Below, piece after piece: positions 3,097 through 9,002 of a stretch of 64,000 nucleotides of DNA. Source of the stretch: Pseudoduganella namucuonensis (GTDB lineage: Bacteria; Pseudomonadota; Gammaproteobacteria; Burkholderiales; Burkholderiaceae_D); contig NZ_FPBO01000001.1 of NCBI RefSeq assembly GCF_900116645.1, positions 132,416 to 196,415 on the forward strand. Direction: 5' to 3'. Within the stretch, counting starts at the first letter, position 1, and each line of letters begins with the position of its first letter. The notes below the pieces were generated by a model. That model had not been told where the DNA came from. It saw only the letters and a list, made by a program, of their open reading frames with translations, and made no database searches. Position numbers and translations under genes: made by a program.

Positions 3097-4187
3097 GGAG
3101 ACACCGCTTGCTTCCCGTTGCATTCCTGCTTGTGCCGGCGGCTTACTTCAGCCTGTGGCCCGTCCCCATCGAGCCGGTGGCTTGGCACGCGCCAAAGGCG
3201 CCGGGCTACGCGGGCGTCCATGCGCCCAACAACAAGCTACTGGGCTTGCACAACATCTCCCTGGACGGTGAGGCCGGGCCCGAATATGTGGCGTTGGGGC
3301 CGGATGGCCTGCTGTACACCGGCGTCGCGAGTGGCCGCATATTGCGCATGAAGCAGGATGGCAGTGGGCGGCAGGTCTTCAGCACCACCGGCGGCAGGCC
3401 GCTGGGCATGGCTTTCGACGAGGGCGGCGGCCTGGTTGTCGCGGACGCGATCAAAGGGCTGCTGTCCATCGCCAAGGACGGCGAGGTAACGGTATTGGCC
3501 GACGCGGTCGAAGGCGATCCAATACGTTTTGCCGAAGGGGCCGTCGTCGCCAGGAACGGCAAGATCTTCTTCACCGACGCTTCGACGCGCTTCGCGCCAG
3601 CGCAATGGGGCGGCACCACGGAGGCCGCGACGCTCGACGTCTTTGAGCAGTCCTGCACGGGGCGCGTACTGGAATATGATCGGGCCGCCAAGGCGGCCCG
3701 CGTCGTCGCGAAAGGCCTGTGCTTCGCCAACGGCATCGCCTTGAGCGGCGATGACGAAACCTTGTTCGTCAGCGAGAGTGGCAGGTACCGGGTATGGAAG
3801 ATCGCCGTCGCGGCCCAAGGGCTCGACGTCGCGCATCAGTCGGCGCAAGCGCGTGTGCTGCTCGACAATTTGCCTGGCTATCCGGACAATCTGACGCGGG
3901 GGCTGGGTGGCAGAATATGGCTGGGCCTTGGTGGACAGCGCAATGACCTCGACCTGATGGCGGAGTGGCCATCCATGCGCAGGGTGGCGTTGCGTATTCC
4001 GCGCATCTTCTGGGCGCTGCCCAAACCTTACGGCCATGTGATCGCCTTTACCGAAGACGGCAAGGTGGTGGCCGATCTCCAAGACCCGACTGGCCATTCC
4101 CCGCTTACCACCGGGGCCACTGAAACGGTGGACCGCCTGTATATTCATAACGCCGACGCCAAGAGCCTGGGATGGATCGCGCAATAG
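3093..4187 (+). CDS. SMP-30/gluconolactonase-like (strictosidine synthase-like) beta-propeller protein
   Basis: 364-residue protein with an N-terminal hydrophobic anchor (about residues 6-23), then a six-bladed propeller-type sequence. It has recurring NHL/SMP-30-like strands such as GPDGLLYTG, the FANGIALSGDDETLFVSESG block and YPDNLTRG. These match the SMP-30 / strictosidine synthase / adipocyte plasma membrane-associated protein superfamily, whose members are lactonases or esterases with a bound metal. It probably acts in the periplasm. Its ATG overlaps the stop of the HExxH gene, so it is the third cistron of the operon. The actual substrate cannot be read from sequence. Confidence 0.8.
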   Translation: MRRHRLLPVAFLLVPAAYFSLWPVPIEPVAWHAPKAPGYAGVHAPNNKLLGLHNISLDGEAGPEYVALGPDGLLYTGVASGRILRMKQDGSGRQVFSTTGGRPLGMAFDEGGGLVVADAIKGLLSIAKDGEVTVLADAVEGDPIRFAEGAVVARNGKIFFTDASTRFAPAQWGGTTEAATLDVFEQSCTGRVLEYDRAAKAARVVAKGLCFANGIALSGDDETLFVSESGRYRVWKIAVAAQGLDVAHQSAQARVLLDNLPGYPDNLTRGLGGRIWLGLGGQRNDLDLMAEWPSMRRVALRIPRIFWALPKPYGHVIAFTEDGKVVADLQDPTGHSPLTTGATETVDRLYIHNADAKSLGWIAQ

Positions 4188-4201
4188 GGGGCAAGGAGGG
4201 A

Positions 4202-4783
4202 ATGTCCGTCGATCAGCAGTGTCTTCGGCAGCGCTTGCGCGCCATCGCGCGCGAGTCGGACTGGTTCATGCAGGCGCTGGAATCGGTGCGTTCGCTGCAA
4301 CTCGATTCCTGGTGCATAGGCGCCGGCGCGGTGCGCAACCTGGTCTGGGATCATCTGCACGGCTACGCCACGCCATCGCCCATCGCCGACGTGGATGTCG
4401 CTTACTTCGACGATGCCGACCTCCGCCCCGAAACCGAACAGGCATTGCAGGCTTTGCTGTGCGCGCGCCATCCCGGCACGCCTTGGGAGGTGACGAATCA
4501 GGCCTGGGTGCATCTGTGGTTCGAGGGCCGCTTCGGTCATCGCGTGGCGCCATTGCGTTCGCTGGAGGACGCTGTGGCGTCCTGGCCCGAATTCGCCACC
4601 TCGGTTGGCATCAAGCTCCAAGAAGACTCGGAGATCGAAGTCATCGCCCCTCATGGCTTGGAGGATCTGTTCTCCATGGTGGTGCGGCGCAATCCCGCCA
4701 GGGTCAGCGTCGAGACCTACCGCAATCGCGTAGCCGAGAAACGGTACCTTCAGCGCTGGCCACGGGTACAGATCGTAGGCTAA
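4202..4783 (+). CDS. DUF925-type nucleotidyltransferase family protein
   Basis: 193-residue protein of the NTP_transf_6 (DUF925) nucleotidyltransferase family. N-terminal features are GAGAVRNLVWDHLHG and the acidic pair in DVDVAYFD, where the metal-binding Asp residues of a minimal nucleotidyltransferase are expected. I chose the ATG at 4202 because an AAGGAGG ribosome site ends 3 bp before it. An upstream in-frame ATG at 4172 would overlap the previous gene by 16 bp. It lacks a HEPN-type partner, so I do not call it a toxin-antitoxin component. Cytoplasmic; substrate unknown. Confidence 0.85.
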   Translation: MSVDQQCLRQRLRAIARESDWFMQALESVRSLQLDSWCIGAGAVRNLVWDHLHGYATPSPIADVDVAYFDDADLRPETEQALQALLCARHPGTPWEVTNQAWVHLWFEGRFGHRVAPLRSLEDAVASWPEFATSVGIKLQEDSEIEVIAPHGLEDLFSMVVRRNPARVSVETYRNRVAEKRYLQRWPRVQIVG

Positions 4784-4804
4784 GGAGGTCGGCGGATCGC
4801 CAGT

Positions 4805-4900
4805 TGTAAGCAGATACAGCAAGTTGTAAGCACGTGTAAAGCTGGTCAACTGGTCAATCCCGGCCCGCGTTTTCAGCTCAGTGACACGGCAAGTGCACCT
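4805..4900. repeat. Direct repeat A, copy 1 (upstream element)
   Basis: 96-bp element upstream of the first alanine/lysine-rich protein gene. It matches 6541-6636 with 12 mismatches and no gaps by eye. Inside it TGTAAG/TGTAAA recurs three times (4805, about 4825 and about 4835). It ends about 30 bp before the start codon of the downstream gene. Likely carries the promoter and an activator site. Confidence 0.8.
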
Positions 4901-4931
4901 AACCTGAAACCTAAGAAAGAGAACTGCAACC

Positions 4932-5138
4932 ATGAAAAAAGCCATCGCTACCCTGATCATCGGCATGTTCGCTACCGCAGCGTTTGCACAGGCCACCACC
5001 ACCCCAACGACGGCGCCCGCCGCACCGGCAGCCCCGGTCGCGAAGGCCGAAGTGAAGGCCGAGGCCAAAGCCGAAGTCAAGACGGAAATCAAAGAATCCA
5101 AGGACGCGGCAAAGCCAGCCGCCCCGGCAGTCAAGTAA
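4932..5138 (+). CDS. Small alanine/lysine-rich exported protein, paralogue 1 (68 aa)
   Basis: 68-residue protein with a clear signal peptide (MKKAIATLIIGMFATAAFAQ, predicted cut after residue 19). The mature part is low-complexity, Ala/Pro/Lys/Glu-rich: a Thr/Pro segment, then VKAEAKAEVK-type charged helix repeats. The signal peptide is nearly the same as in the two larger paralogues at 5195 and 6687, so all three belong to one family. It lies downstream of repeat A copy 1 and 56 bp before the next paralogue, probably on the same transcript. No homologous named function is recognised. A periplasmic, largely helical or disordered protein is inferred. Confidence 0.75.
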   Translation: MKKAIATLIIGMFATAAFAQATTTPTTAPAAPAAPVAKAEVKAEAKAEVKTEIKESKDAAKPAAPAVK

Positions 5139-5158
5139 GCACCATCGCAGTAAAAACC

Positions 5159-5554
5159 GAATAAACCATTTATACAAATACTGAGGAAACCATCATGACC
5201 AAGACCATCGCTACCCTGATCGCCGGCCTGTTCGCTACCGCTGCATTCGCGCAAACCCCGGCCCCTGCCGCCGCACCCGTTCCAGCCGCCAAGGCCGAAG
5301 CCAAAGTGGTGAAGGCCGAAGCCAAGGAAACCAAGGAAGTCGCCAAGGCCGACGCGAAGGAAACCAAGGAAGTCGCCAAGGCCGACGCGAAGGAACACAA
5401 GGAAGTAGCGAAAGCCGAGGCCAAGGAAACCAAGGCCGCCGCCAACGCGAAGGAAGAAGTGGCCGGCGCCAAGGCCGATGCCAAGGTAGAGAAGGCGAAG
5501 GCCCACGCCAAGGCCGAGAAGTCGAAAGAGAAGGCGCACGCCAAAGAAGCCAAG
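5159..5554. repeat. Direct repeat B, copy 1 (gene and leader)
   Basis: 396-bp block covering the leader and most of the 147-aa gene. It matches 6651-7046 with three mismatches that I can find (5281, 5523, 5545). It ends where the second copy has a 9-bp deletion. This is far closer identity than the upstream repeat A pair shows. Confidence 0.85.
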
Positions 5555-5638
5555 GAAACCAAGCCGGCCGACAAGGCGGCGGCGGTTCCCGCGGCGGCGC
5601 CGGTGGTGGCTTCGGCAGCCACTCCAGCCGCGAAGTAA
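5195..5638 (+). CDS. Alanine/lysine-rich exported 11-mer-repeat protein, copy 1 (147 aa)
   Basis: 147 residues. Signal peptide at 1-19 (cut at AFA/Q), a Pro/Ala linker, then a highly charged Ala-Lys-Glu region. Exact 11-residue units KETKEVAKADA (twice) and KEHKEVAKAEA lie at about 44-76, followed by degenerate AKAEK/AKADAK units and an Ala/Pro tail. Eleven-residue Lys/Ala/Glu repeats are typical of LEA group 3 proteins and apolipoprotein-like amphipathic helices. That resemblance is compositional only. It has no Cys and almost no aromatic residues. GAGGAAAC precedes the start. A strong terminator follows at 5660. Function unknown; periplasmic stress or envelope role is a guess. Confidence 0.8.
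   Translation: MTKTIATLIAGLFATAAFAQTPAPAAAPVPAAKAEAKVVKAEAKETKEVAKADAKETKEVAKADAKEHKEVAKAEAKETKAAANAKEEVAGAKADAKVEKAKAHAKAEKSKEKAHAKEAKETKPADKAAAVPAAAPVVASAATPAAK
5324..5422 (+). repeat. 33-bp coding tandem repeat, three units
   Basis: Units begin at 5324, 5357 and 5390. The first two are identical over 33 bp and the third differs at several positions. Each encodes one 11-residue unit of the exported protein. Confidence 0.85.
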
Positions 5639-5659
5639 GCAGCGCGTTTTGCTAGTCAG

Positions 5660-5685
5660 TCCCCGCTACGGCGGGGATTTTTTTT
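5660..5685 (+). terminator. Rho-independent terminator
   Basis: Perfect 7-bp stem TCCCCGC/GCGGGGA with a 4-nt loop, followed at once by eight T residues. It ends the repeat-protein transcript. Confidence 0.9.
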
Positions 5686-5764
5686 GCATGTTACCATCGC
5701 GTTCGCCCCCCCCGACCGCGGCGCCACGCCGCGGCTCTGCAACCGACATGCATCGGCAACTTCA

Positions 5765-6211
5765 ATGAGCACTCCATCGCATCTGATCTCACTTCGTCCA
5801 GCCACCGCGGCCGACCTGCCGTTTCTCCTGGCGCTGCGGCGGTCCGCGATGACCCCGCATCTGCAGGCCGCCGGGATAGCGCAGGATGAGGCAGGGATGA
5901 TGGAACGCGTCCTCGTGGGCTTCGAGGGGGCCAGGATCATCGAGTTCGCTGGCGGTGCGATCGGCCTGTTGAAAATGATCAAGGGCGAGCGGGCGTGGGA
6001 TATCGTCCAAATACAGCTGCTGCCGGAATGGCAGGGGCAAGGCATAGGCGCTCTCTTGCTGTCGCAGGCTCTCGCCGAAGCGGCGGAAGCCAAGGCCACC
6101 GTCCTGCTTTCGGTCCTCAAGGTCAACAAGGCACGCCGGCTGTACGAGCGTCTCGGGTTTTCCGTCATCTCTGAAGACGAGAATTCCTATTCCATGCGGG
6201 CCATGCCATGA
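5765..6211 (+). CDS. GNAT family N-acetyltransferase
   Basis: 148-residue acetyltransferase of the GNAT fold. The acetyl-CoA pyrophosphate loop is visible as LLPEWQGQGIGALLL (Q/RxxGxG/A motif), preceded by the IVQIQ strand. The C-terminal NKARRLYERLGF helix is typical of the family. I chose the ATG at 5765 because the protein begins just before the conserved RPATAADLPFLL. A longer frame from 5684 has a non-conserved, unlikely N-terminus. Its stop overlaps the cupin ATG (ATGA), so the two are translated together. Acceptor substrate unknown. The pair sits between the two copies of the duplicated locus. Confidence 0.88.
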   Translation: MSTPSHLISLRPATAADLPFLLALRRSAMTPHLQAAGIAQDEAGMMERVLVGFEGARIIEFAGGAIGLLKMIKGERAWDIVQIQLLPEWQGQGIGALLLSQALAEAAEAKATVLLSVLKVNKARRLYERLGFSVISEDENSYSMRAMP

Positions 6212-6525
6212 AAACCGGAAACCTGTATGCGAACACGGCGCCGCCTCTGGACGGTGAGCGTTTCGAAACGCTGCTCGCGCACAAAGGCCTGGTCATCGAA
6301 CGCATCGTCAGTTCATCGAAGATCGCATCGCAGGAATACGTGCAGGAGCAGGATGAATGGGTCGTTCTGCTTCGGGGCGATGCGACACTCGATGTCGAAG
6401 GCGACGCGATCGCTTTGCAGGCGGGCGACCACGTGTTCCTTCCCTCCCGCACGCGCCATACGGTACTGAGTGTTTCCGAAGGGGCGCTCTGGCTGGCGAT
6501 TCATCTTCATTCCCAGGCGTCTTGA
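6208..6525 (+). CDS. Cupin-domain protein
   Basis: 105-residue single-domain cupin. The beta-barrel motifs are visible: EQDEWVVLLRGDATLDVEG for motif 1 (the metal-ligand positions are only partly conserved) and GDHVFLPSRTRHTV for motif 2, with one His. Soluble, cytoplasmic. It overlaps the GNAT stop by 4 bp, so the pair forms a two-gene unit. Such small cupins bind or isomerise small molecules. No specific reaction can be assigned. Confidence 0.85.
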   Translation: MKTGNLYANTAPPLDGERFETLLAHKGLVIERIVSSSKIASQEYVQEQDEWVVLLRGDATLDVEGDAIALQAGDHVFLPSRTRHTVLSVSEGALWLAIHLHSQAS

Positions 6526-6540
6526 AGTTGGAACGGTATT

Positions 6541-6636
6541 TGTAAGCAGATACAGCAACTTGTAACCACGTGTAAAGCTCGTCAACTGCCTGGTTCCGGC
6601 CCGCGTTTTTAGCTCAGTGACACGGAATGTGCACCT
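6541..6636. repeat. Direct repeat A, copy 2 (upstream element)
   Basis: 96-bp second copy of the element at 4805-4900, same length, about 87 percent identical by eye. Here it lies immediately before repeat B copy 2, without the 68-aa gene that separates A and B in the first copy. Confidence 0.8.
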
Positions 6637-6650
6637 GATGCGGTAAAACG

Positions 6651-7046
6651 GAATAAACCATTTATACAAATACTGAGGAAACCATCATGACCAAGACCAT
6701 CGCTACCCTGATCGCCGGCCTGTTCGCTACCGCTGCATTCGCGCAAACCCCGGCCCCTGCCGCCGCACCCGTGCCAGCCGCCAAGGCCGAAGCCAAAGTG
6801 GTGAAGGCCGAAGCCAAGGAAACCAAGGAAGTCGCCAAGGCCGACGCGAAGGAAACCAAGGAAGTCGCCAAGGCCGACGCGAAGGAACACAAGGAAGTAG
6901 CGAAAGCCGAGGCCAAGGAAACCAAGGCCGCCGCCAACGCGAAGGAAGAAGTGGCCGGCGCCAAGGCCGATGCCAAGGTAGAGAAGGCGAAGGCCCACGC
7001 CAAGGCCGAGAAGTCCAAAGAGAAGGCGCACGCCAAGGAAGCCAAG
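6651..7046. repeat. Direct repeat B, copy 2 (gene and leader)
   Basis: 396-bp near-identical copy of 5159-5554, carrying the leader and the start of the 142-aa paralogue. Beyond 7046 the two copies diverge in their Ala/Pro tails. Confidence 0.85.
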
Positions 7047-7115
7047 CCGGCTGACAAGTCGGCCGCCGCTCCAGCCGCAACCACCGTAGCCGCCGCCGCT
7101 CCAGCCGCCAAGTAA
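6687..7115 (+). CDS. Alanine/lysine-rich exported 11-mer-repeat protein, copy 2 (142 aa)
   Basis: 142-residue near-duplicate of the 5195 gene: same signal peptide, same linker and the same 11-residue units. A 3-residue deletion (ETK) near residue 120 and a different Ala-rich tail set it apart. The leader with GAGGAAAC is identical to copy 1. Transcription probably starts in repeat A copy 2 and ends at the perfect hairpin at 7131. The preserved reading frame and nearly identical DNA point to recent duplication or gene conversion. Function unknown. Confidence 0.8.
   Translation: MTKTIATLIAGLFATAAFAQTPAPAAAPVPAAKAEAKVVKAEAKETKEVAKADAKETKEVAKADAKEHKEVAKAEAKETKAAANAKEEVAGAKADAKVEKAKAHAKAEKSKEKAHAKEAKPADKSAAAPAATTVAAAAPAAK
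6816..6914 (+). repeat. 33-bp coding tandem repeat, copy 2
   Basis: Same three 33-bp units as at 5324-5422, shifted by 1492 bp. They encode the 11-residue repeats of the second exported paralogue. Confidence 0.85.
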
Positions 7116-7130
7116 TTCATCCGGTCTCGC

Positions 7131-7160
7131 AAAAGGCTCCTGTCACGGCGGGAGCCTTTT
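7131..7160. terminator. Strong hairpin terminator, possibly bidirectional
   Basis: Perfect 10-bp stem AAAAGGCTCC/GGAGCCTTTT with a 10-nt loop. The A-run and T-run flanks would let it work in either direction. Confidence 0.88.
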
Positions 7161-7255
7161 GCTATTTCGGGCTTGCGCACTGATTAAGGATTTCCTAAGC
7201 ACTTGCTTGCCGCTATCGGCAATGATCACGCTAACGTTATTTCAGCGGAGCAAGC

Positions 7256-7459
7256 ATGAAGAGATGGTCGCCATTGCTGAGCACAGTGGTCTGCTGTGCG
7301 GTTATCGAGCTCATTCTGCTTGCCTTTATCTTCCTGGTGGCGAGGGTTGGTTTCGATTTGCTAGGTTACATATGGCTGATTTTGGGACCGGCGAGCGCAT
7401 GGCTGGGACCACTGGTGTACCAGCACTTCAAGGCGAAAGAGGAACCGCGCCTCAAGTAG
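7256..7459 (+). CDS. Small two-pass membrane protein (67 aa)
   Basis: 67 residues with a basic N-terminus (MKRW). It has two hydrophobic segments, about 8-30 and 36-57, and a short charged C-terminus KAKEEPRLK. A GCGGAGC-type ribosome site precedes the ATG. A TTGCCG/CGGCAA hairpin lies upstream at 7207-7222. It is probably an inner-membrane protein. I recognise no family, and no neighbouring gene hints at a role. Confidence 0.6.
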   Translation: MKRWSPLLSTVVCCAVIELILLAFIFLVARVGFDLLGYIWLILGPASAWLGPLVYQHFKAKEEPRLK

Positions 7460-7532: not shown

Positions 7533-9002
7533 ATGGCAAACATAGATATCAAATTGTCGCAGTCCATTGTGAGCAGCGGGCTACTGCCGGACTGGGACCT
7601 TCAAGACGGCATGCTGGCCGACCTGGTCGACGCGATGACCATCGCCGCGTCCACCTTCCCGGACAGGTTCTCGCAGGACGCGACCTGGAGCTTCGACGGT
7701 GCCACTGCGCGCCTGTCCTTCCCGGACGGTTCGTATCAACAGTTCACCGGCGTGTCGCTGGCCGACCCCACCTCCCTGCGCGGGACCGCCACCGCGACCG
7801 GCATGCAGCTGTCCGTGCCGGGCGCGGCGTCCGTCGTGGAGACGGGGCGCTACAGCTTCAGCTACGAGATCGTCAACAACCAGCTGTTCGTGCGCGGCAC
7901 CGCCTCCACGGTCACCTCGGCCAAGATCCAGACCTTGCTGAGCACATCGTCGCCCGACTATGACCAGACGCTGGGCAATGTCGGCGTCGAGCTGCGGGGT
8001 CAGCTGAATGTGGACGCCAGCGGCAACCTGGATGGCACGGTCGCCGCGATCACGCTGGCGGCGGACAAGTTCATCGCGTCGGCCAGCCTCACCGGCAGCT
8101 TCCATGTGTCGGGCAACGCGGTCAGCATCGGCGACGGCGACGGCCATATGGCGGTGGACGGCACGCTGGCGGGACTCGACGCCGTGTTCCAGGATGGCAG
8201 CCACGCCAGCATCAGCGGCATCGCCGCGGCCGTCGGCGCGGGCGCGGACCTGGGCGCCGGCCTGCTGACCGATCCCGCGCTCCTGGGCGGCAACGACACC
8301 ATCCGCGTCGAGCTGCCGGCGAGCCTGCAGGGATCCCTCACCATCGCCTCCGGCGCCGGCAACGACGCGGTCGCGGTGGGCGGCGGCCGCGGCCAGCTGA
8401 ACGTGGACGCGGGCGCGGGCAACGACATCATCACCGTGCTGTCCGGCAGCCACGACGTGGACGGCGGCGCGGGCCTGGACACCCTGGTCTATAGTGGCGG
8501 ACGCCAGCAATACACGGTGGCCAGTTCGGACCAGGGGCGCGTCATCACCGGTTCGTCCGGCTCGGACCTGGCGAGCAATGTGGAGCGGGTGAAGTTCGCC
8601 GACGGGATGCTGGCCTTCGACCTGGACGGCGGCGCGGGCCAGGCTTACCGCCTGTACCAGGCCGCATTCGACCGCGCGCCGGACGCCGCGGGCCTGGGCT
8701 ACTGGATCGACGCGATGGACCGCCAGGTCAGCCTGCGCGACGTGGCGCAAAGCTTCATCAACAGCGGCGAGTTCGCGCAGCTGTATGGCGCCAATCCCAC
8801 CACGGAGGCCTTCGTGTCGCGCCTGTACAGCAACGTGCTGCACCGCGCCCCGGACCAGGCGGGCTACGACTACTGGGTCGACGCGATGCACGGCGGCGCC
8901 TCCAAGGCCGACGTGCTGGCCAGCTTCAGCGAGGGCGGCGAGAACCGCGCGCAGGTGATCGGCATCATCCAGGACGGCATCGCCTACACGCTGGTGGGTT
9001 GA
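7533..9002 (+). CDS. RTX-like calcium-binding protein with C-terminal DUF4214 repeats
   Basis: 489 residues with no N-terminal signal peptide. Residues about 251-322 hold Gly/Asp-rich nonapeptide-like motifs (GGNDTI, GAGNDAV, GAGNDII, GGAGLDTL) like RTX calcium-binding rolls. Residues about 370-485 carry two consecutive DUF4214 units (LYQAAFDRAPDAAGLGYW and LYSNVLHRAPDQAGYDYW). The N-terminal 250 residues are beta-rich and unrecognised. This layout is typical of type I-secreted surface or extracellular proteins of Burkholderiales. Secretion is inferred, since no ABC/HlyD/TolC genes are nearby. Translation signal before the ATG is weak. Confidence 0.82.
   Translation: MANIDIKLSQSIVSSGLLPDWDLQDGMLADLVDAMTIAASTFPDRFSQDATWSFDGATARLSFPDGSYQQFTGVSLADPTSLRGTATATGMQLSVPGAASVVETGRYSFSYEIVNNQLFVRGTASTVTSAKIQTLLSTSSPDYDQTLGNVGVELRGQLNVDASGNLDGTVAAITLAADKFIASASLTGSFHVSGNAVSIGDGDGHMAVDGTLAGLDAVFQDGSHASISGIAAAVGAGADLGAGLLTDPALLGGNDTIRVELPASLQGSLTIASGAGNDAVAVGGGRGQLNVDAGAGNDIITVLSGSHDVDGGAGLDTLVYSGGRQQYTVASSDQGRVITGSSGSDLASNVERVKFADGMLAFDLDGGAGQAYRLYQAAFDRAPDAAGLGYWIDAMDRQVSLRDVAQSFINSGEFAQLYGANPTTEAFVSRLYSNVLHRAPDQAGYDYWVDAMHGGASKADVLASFSEGGENRAQVIGIIQDGIAYTLVG

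Follow-up and report, generated by a model that had tools for sequence, protein, structure and literature searches.

A tandem family of exported Ala/Lys/Glu-rich proteins in Pseudoduganella namucuonensis and other Oxalobacteraceae, and the conserved promoter found upstream of many of its genes

Promoter and regulator compared with described systems

The protein Asr has been described as an intrinsically disordered chaperone of the periplasm that accounts for some 2% of the reads at pH 4.4 (PMC10746267), and BilRI of Aggregatibacter, which is assigned to LEA_4, as a protein of the outer membrane with eleven 11-residue units (PMC8096337). On the regulatory side, the extracytoplasmic function (ECF) sigma factor SigAb of Acinetobacter uses a core promoter defined by mutagenesis as a -35 GTCAAC and a -10 CGTT with a 17-bp spacer (PMC12153292), and chromatin immunoprecipitation sequencing of Bordetella RisA is reported to yield the motif GTTACA in 391 of 430 peaks and to place one RisA site at its own gene, risA (PMC11019879). 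Here we analyse three genes, ORF1, ORF2 and ORF3, from a 64,000-nt stretch, C38:132416-196415, of the Pseudoduganella namucuonensis genome (8.49 Mb); the whole stretch is called the window, and all coordinates are window positions (Table 1). We consider it reasonably probable that these genes form a small cluster encoding disordered envelope protectants similar to Asr, induced by stress under the control of a RisA/OmpR regulator and an ECF-type core promoter.

The resemblance to Asr concerns the proteins and the DNA upstream of their genes. Escherichia coli Asr (Ala 0.28, Lys 0.21, rich in Pro and Thr, no aromatic residues, pI 10.5) and the window proteins (Ala 0.33-0.38, Lys 0.17-0.22, no aromatic residues, pI 9.2-9.5) are both basic and Ala/Lys-rich, with a signal peptide recognised by eye. 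In both cases a tandem box of the OmpR/PhoB-family type with a 10-bp step lies about 100-120 nt before the ATG. The window family differs from Asr in being clustered in tandem, in being Glu-rich with 11-residue units and in having an ECF-type core promoter, and the box of E. coli asr is oriented the other way.

In P1, one of the two promoters of the locus, the steps from 4805 through 4845 are exactly 10 bp each. The core GTCAAC-N16-18-CGTTTT was found three times in the P. namucuonensis genome, namely in P1, in P2 and at one other place (one match in the control), and the interval 4750-7260 yielded no sigma-70 promoter. Related proteins were collected as 77 loci kept from the best 80 of at least 108 confirmed matches. 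We take these loci to belong to Oxalobacteraceae, by genus or by family, with the exception of L018, which is placed in Burkholderiaceae only. A loose signal-peptide filter, which took in at least one false pick (L036:1749), selected 166 ORFs from the window and the 77 loci; 161 of these are distinct, and many stand in tandem.

The pattern GTCAAC-N16-18-CGTT was present upstream of 100 of the 162 family ORFs counted, with a 17-nt spacer in 98, in loci that had been fetched by the protein alone; the count leaves out ORFs with less than 200 nt upstream, minus-strand ORFs and identical upstream sequences, and it comes from related sequences that are not independent. All but one of the 100 cores are preceded by TGTAA, which lies 5-6 nt away in 91 cases and 14-16 nt away, one helical turn further out, in the other 8, and the steps between the TGTAA sites of the family are 10, 19-20 or 29 in 128 of 129. 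Among the 62 ORFs lacking the core, 46 sit less than 160 nt 3' of another family ORF. The other 16 comprise 12 members of a subfamily of about 155 aa, two ORFs that resemble it (L041 and L061), a divergent form (L055:2912) and the false pick mentioned above.

A stronger test than the counts over family ORFs is a search for the bare DNA pattern, which ignores the protein. Across 60 genomes from the GTDB family this search gave 20 places in 14 genomes and none for the reversed control, and 19 of the 20 places precede a family gene, the exception being L098. When the pattern was relaxed and searched within the genus, 73 of 74 genomes had a match (71 of 71 good ones), compared with six control matches; as the sole match in one of these genomes (G079) is L211, where no family gene follows, 73 of 74 is an upper figure for the family. 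Among the matches listed, 27 of the 31 sites checked in 30 fetched loci precede a family gene. In 368 other genomes of the class the five matches, compared with nine in the control, are background, and none of them lies before a family gene. At L104, L188, L204 and L211 we also observed a conserved element, GTCAACCTC.AG.GCA.TT...ACGTTTTCCCC, which fits the core pattern and has no family gene downstream.

The family promoters have the SigAb-type core (GTCAAC, 16-17 nt, CGTT), and P1, P2 and the family cores share the -35, the -10 and the 17-bp spacer of SigAb-dependent promoters. The direct targets given for SigAb are sigAb, relA and sabS, and SigAb is called Acinetobacter-specific (PMC12153292), whereas the core described here adjoins a response-regulator box and serves a single family of proteins.

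The box TGTAA-N5-TGTAA was found 11 times in the P. namucuonensis genome (four times in the control), including P1, P2 and one copy 104 nt before the ompR gene. The product of that gene exceeds the NCBIfam cut-off for OmpR (421.6 vs 331), whereas its scores for CpxR (177.2) and RstA (171.5) are both below the respective cut-offs. The kinase encoded 3' of ompR contains a RisS periplasmic domain (RisS_PPD, 129.3 vs 27.5) and misses the cut-off for EnvZ, so the pair is best named RisA/OmpR. The same box was present at ompR in 25 of 25 loci of the genus, in a survey in which 26 of 30 loci could be parsed and the four unparsed ones all came from other GTDB families. In other genera (30 genomes, 23 genera) it was present at 28 of 29 parsed ompR loci, at 27 of them upstream of the first ATG. 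No box was found in the flanks of the ompR loci, neither in 180,532 nt of the same-genus survey nor in 198,672 nt of the other genera.

The reverse complement of GTTACA is TGTAAC, the sequence that stands as first half-site in the box at ompR in 19 of 25 loci of the genus and 26 of 28 loci of other genera. The motif reported for Salmonella OmpR is TGTWACAW (PMC3586657). The likeness to the RisA/RisS regulon of Bordetella consists of an OmpR-type regulator beside a RisS-domain kinase, of the motif and of a site at the regulator gene. The motif published for Bordetella has six bases and occurs at spacings of 5 to 180 bp, whereas here a regular 10-bp series adjoins an ECF-type core, and the available parts of the two Bordetella reports (PMC11019879, PMC5020355) name no such protein family. 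As for the signals, OmpR/EnvZ of Acidovorax citrulli is described as critical under high osmolarity and not under acid, with an operon that responds to salt and pH (PMC12170943), and RisA/RisS of Bordetella bronchiseptica has been linked to oxidative stress (PMC5020355).

Another of the 11 boxes of the P. namucuonensis genome, with three TGTAA sites, was observed about 108 nt before a GDP-mannose dehydratase-like (gmd-like) gene at L107 (C11:161154). This gene reaches 408.9 bits vs a cut-off of 415, in a stretch that stops before the gene end, and it is a possible further target of OmpR.

The protein family and its repeats

The sequence-only reading of this DNA had described three paralogous exported proteins in a duplicated locus, two of them with exact KETKEVAKADA units encoded by 33-bp tandem repeats, and this description was borne out. 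The N-termini of ORF1, ORF2 and ORF3 all follow M-K/T-K-x-IATLI.G.FATAAFAQ, a common predicted signal peptide, and the first 60 nt of ORF1 match those of ORF2 and ORF3 at 82%. The exact unit begins at 5324 and 5357 in ORF2 and at 6816 and 6849 in ORF3. In the core of ORF2 the residue identity is 0.58 at lag 11, and the remaining lags between 2 and 33 give 0.07-0.43; ORF1 has no 11-residue periodicity, and of the three it is ORF2 and ORF3 that have the repeat length of LEA group 3. When lags 5-19 are compared, lag 11 scores highest in 93 of the 154 distinct family ORFs whose mature part has at least 50 aa. The window proteins are longer by 22 residues, that is two units, than their nearest relatives (L001 and L010), and from this comparison the exact repeats are read as a gain of two units and the 11-residue unit itself as older.

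The mature part of ORF2 consists of 36% Ala, 22% Lys and 13% Glu, has no aromatic residue or Cys, and has a pI of 9.4. The power at 3.67 residues, the period of an 11/3 helix, was equalled in 6 of 2000 shuffles for ORF2, in 7 of 2000 for ORF3 and in 773 of 2000 for ORF1. Of the periods scanned, 2.22 residues and not 3.67 is the strongest in ORF2 and ORF3, and the mean moment is 0.23. The amphipathic signal of these two proteins is real and its size modest. On an 11/3 helix the Lys residues of the unit lie at 295-360 degrees, the Glu residues at 33 and 98, the Ala/Val/Thr residues at 65 and 131-262 and the Asp at 164. In this model the Lys, acidic and Ala/Val/Thr faces would be mostly separate, with one Asp inside the Ala/Val/Thr face, and because of this separation the repeat could lie on membranes or on client proteins. 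AlphaFold predicts a single helix, residues 32-122, with low confidence (mean pLDDT 58, pTM 0.25). A search of solved structures gave one match with an E-value of 0.51, treated as chance, Foldseek found no match with the AlphaFold model, and no PHROGs family matched the two of three ORFs scanned.

In an alignment of 53 members, drawn from the 161 distinct family ORFs, all invariant or nearly invariant columns fall within the first 20 residues, which form the signal peptide. The mature parts range, by eye, from Glu/Lys-rich 11-residue units to His/Lys/Pro-rich forms. The P. namucuonensis genome encodes one further family member elsewhere, of 166 aa (L081). The subfamily of about 155 aa, found at 12 loci (L015, L021, L046, L048, L056, L058, L059, L065, L068, L071, L073 and L076), has the same signal peptide and lacks the TGTAA/GTCAAC promoter. 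A GTACG(C/G)TAGCGTACAG-like palindrome was seen by eye upstream of its genes, which suggests another regulator.

No Pfam or NCBIfam model attains its cut-off on ORF1, ORF2 or ORF3, and the best E-values among the 53 members are 0.0042 (Pfam) and 0.0054 (NCBIfam). Two family names were considered and rejected. For NF033636 (acid_shock_Asr of NCBIfam), ORF1 scores 11.8 vs a cut-off of 50 bits, and three of the 53 members match at E<=0.1 (best 0.0092). For DUF4148 (PF13663), ORF1 scores 15.9 vs 27 bits, and five members match at E<=0.1 (best 0.0048). We describe the family as exported, low-complexity Ala/Lys/Glu(/Pro/Thr) proteins that lack a curated name. The literature listings searched, whose coverage leaves out most subscription journals, contained no paper naming it.

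Proposed mechanism and its alternatives

Starting from the genes, the repeats, the conserved promoter and the ompR box observed above, we propose the following for regulator binding, activation, sigma class, protein location, cleavage and function. Envelope stress (osmotic, acid or oxidative) would cause a sensor kinase to activate the RisA/OmpR-type regulator. Dimers of the regulator would occupy the 10-bp-phased TGTAA half-sites adjoining the -35 and recruit an ECF holoenzyme to the GTCAAC-N17-CGTT core, so that P1 would drive ORF1-ORF2 and P2 would drive ORF3. The proteins would be exported and cut between AFA and Q. Disordered or loosely helical, basic and free of aromatic residues and Cys, they may serve as abundant non-catalytic periplasmic protectants, like Asr, and shield envelope proteins or membranes. 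The envelope-protection role put forward in the sequence-only reading has become more plausible, because P1 and P2 share their box with the ompR gene.

A wider proposal, which we advance only tentatively, is that a private two-signal promoter (RisA/OmpR box and ECF core) drives little beyond a tandem family of exported disordered proteins that is diversifying rapidly. The family would then be a lineage-specific envelope protectant arsenal and the Oxalobacteraceae counterpart of the single Asr of enterobacteria, with repeat number and composition as its evolving parts. The analysis as a whole makes an anonymous family of low-complexity ORFs into a regulon that can be tested, for which both an activator and a promoter class are predicted. 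If the mechanism proposed here is right, the idea behind Asr, that of a charged, disordered chaperone in the periplasm, would extend to a system of several genes with varying repeats in a lineage from soil, water and plants, and there would be a natural case of an OmpR-type activator acting on an ECF-type promoter. The targets of RisA have been mapped in Bordetella (PMC11019879), and the Oxalobacteraceae literature listings searched contained no such regulon.

Several observations weigh against the proposed mechanism. On the side of the proteins, Asr membership by profile fails, the confidence of the AlphaFold model is low, and the subfamily of about 155 aa, together with the related 166-aa protein of the same genome (L081), has no such promoter. 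Four of the 31 genus sites (L188, L201, L204 and L211) have no family gene downstream. No cognate sigma gene was found among the 30 of 36 sigma-region-4 loci checked for the exact core, which occurs there once, inside a sigma ORF and not upstream of it. The partner kinase stays under the EnvZ cut-off (260.1 vs 415). The only parsed ompR locus from another GTDB family (one of five) has no box, and among the ompR loci of other genera one lacks the box, one has it 23 nt inside the first ATG and one was unparsed. Family boxes mostly read TGTAAGC or TGTAAA and ompR boxes mostly TGTAAC, so that the half-sites are not identical and the two kinds of box, by sequence comparison, match in type and not in letters. 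RstA and CpxR use similar tandem sites. In addition, Bordetella RisA has a site at risA, yet that study detected no autoregulation in the conditions it used (PMC11019879).

The main rival on the identity of the regulator is that the TGTAA box belongs to another member of the OmpR/PhoB family, RstA-like or CpxR-like, which also acts on ompR, the trigger being general envelope damage. This possibility draws on the tandem box of RstA, TACATNTNGTTACA, which has the same 10-bp step (PMC4117788) and recurs unchanged 117 nt upstream of E. coli asr. We regard it as unlikely in view of the box being fixed at ompR in the 25 same-genus loci and, in other genera, at 28 of the 29 loci parsed, and of the report that Bordetella RisA binds GTTACA and its own promoter region (PMC11019879). 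Somewhat less likely still is that the proteins are a fast-evolving, low-complexity exported filler or matrix component (in adhesion, in biofilm or as a polycation for LPS or exopolysaccharide) and no stress protectants. The restriction of invariant and nearly invariant columns to the signal peptide would suit such a role, as would the similar box upstream of the gmd-like gene, whereas the tightly conserved promoter, with its match in 73 of 74 genus genomes (matches checked in part), argues for a regulated need.

As to the proteins themselves, the sequence-only reading had compared them with LEA group 3, and they may be true exported proteins of this type that are disordered in water, form amphipathic helices on drying and guard membranes. 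They share with LEA_4 and LEA group 3 proteins, including BilRI, a hydrophilic make-up of 11-residue Lys/Ala/acidic units without aromatic residues, and the single predicted helix would fit as well. BilRI (PMC8096337) is moreover an exported bacterial protein, already known, that is assigned to LEA_4, so that export alone is not new and the statement that 11-residue-repeat proteins are not normally known as periplasmic bacterial proteins was too strong. The LEA_4 profile (PF02987), however, was matched neither by ORF1, ORF2 and ORF3 (E<=1) nor by the 53 family members (E<=0.1), in a test where the HMMER bias correction may penalise the Ala/Lys/Glu-rich composition. An LEA_4 search of the genome gave no match, as did 14 control genomes, which makes it a weak search. 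Scored with the familiar consensus 11-mer of LEA group 3, the best agreement was 6/9, and 1901 of 2000 shuffles were as good for ORF2. In 61 of the 154 family ORFs compared, lag 11 does not come first among lags 5-19. These sequences do not justify the LEA label, and we consider membership of LEA group 3 improbable, to about the same degree as control by another OmpR/PhoB-family regulator.

Organisation of the locus

Table 1. Positions of the genes, promoters, repeats and hairpins of the locus in the window.
Feature	Position	Strand	Description
P1 activator box	4805..4839	+	TGTAA at 4805, 4825 and 4835; degenerate TACAG at 4815
P1 core	4845..4873	+	GTCAAC 4845-4850, 17 nt, CGTTTT 4868-4873; ECF-type -35/-10
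ORF1	4932..5138	+	68-aa Ala/Lys/Pro-rich protein, predicted signal peptide
ORF2	5195..5638	+	147-aa 11-residue-repeat protein, predicted signal peptide
33-bp tandem repeat in ORF2	5312..5435	+	3.8 copies, 87% match
Terminator-like hairpin and T run, 3' of ORF2	5658..5685	+	from the terminator scan; named for its position
P2 activator box	6541..6575	+	half-sites at 6541, 6551 (degenerate), 6561 and 6571
P2 core	6581..6609	+	GTCAAC 6581-6586, 17 nt, CGTTTT 6604-6609
ORF3	6687..7115	+	142-aa near-copy of ORF2, own promoter P2
33-bp tandem repeat in ORF3	6804..6927	+	3.8 copies, 87% match
Hairpin and TTTT, 3' of ORF3	7135..7160	+	terminator by eye only; absent from the terminator scan output

ORF1 and ORF2 are separated by 56 nt and are probably one operon transcribed from P1. 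ORF2 and ORF3 are connected by a duplicated stretch of 402 nt (5153-5554 and 6645-7046) with 99.0% identity, and the promoter copies extend over 97 nt (4804-4900 and 6540-6636) with 87.6% identity. ORF1 is not part of the duplication, and neither are the genes for a GNAT acetyltransferase and a cupin that separate the two copies. Based on this comparison, ORF3 is taken to originate from a duplication of the ORF2 region and the promoter. The P2 copy of the promoter is fused to the leader of the ORF2 copy, and hence there is no copy of ORF1 at that place. The terminator scan of the region gave one hit vs a shuffle mean of 5.1, a count that is not significant, and no Rfam elements were found in the region.

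Upstream of the cluster lies a nucleotidyltransferase-like gene (4172-4783), and the GNAT acetyltransferase and cupin genes occupy 5765-6211 and 6208-6525, between the two repeat-gene units. None of these three genes has a counterpart in L001-L077 at E<=1e-10. A DUF4214 gene follows the cluster on its 3' side (7533-9002); another one, with 46% identity, stands among the cluster genes of L001 (3436-4608).

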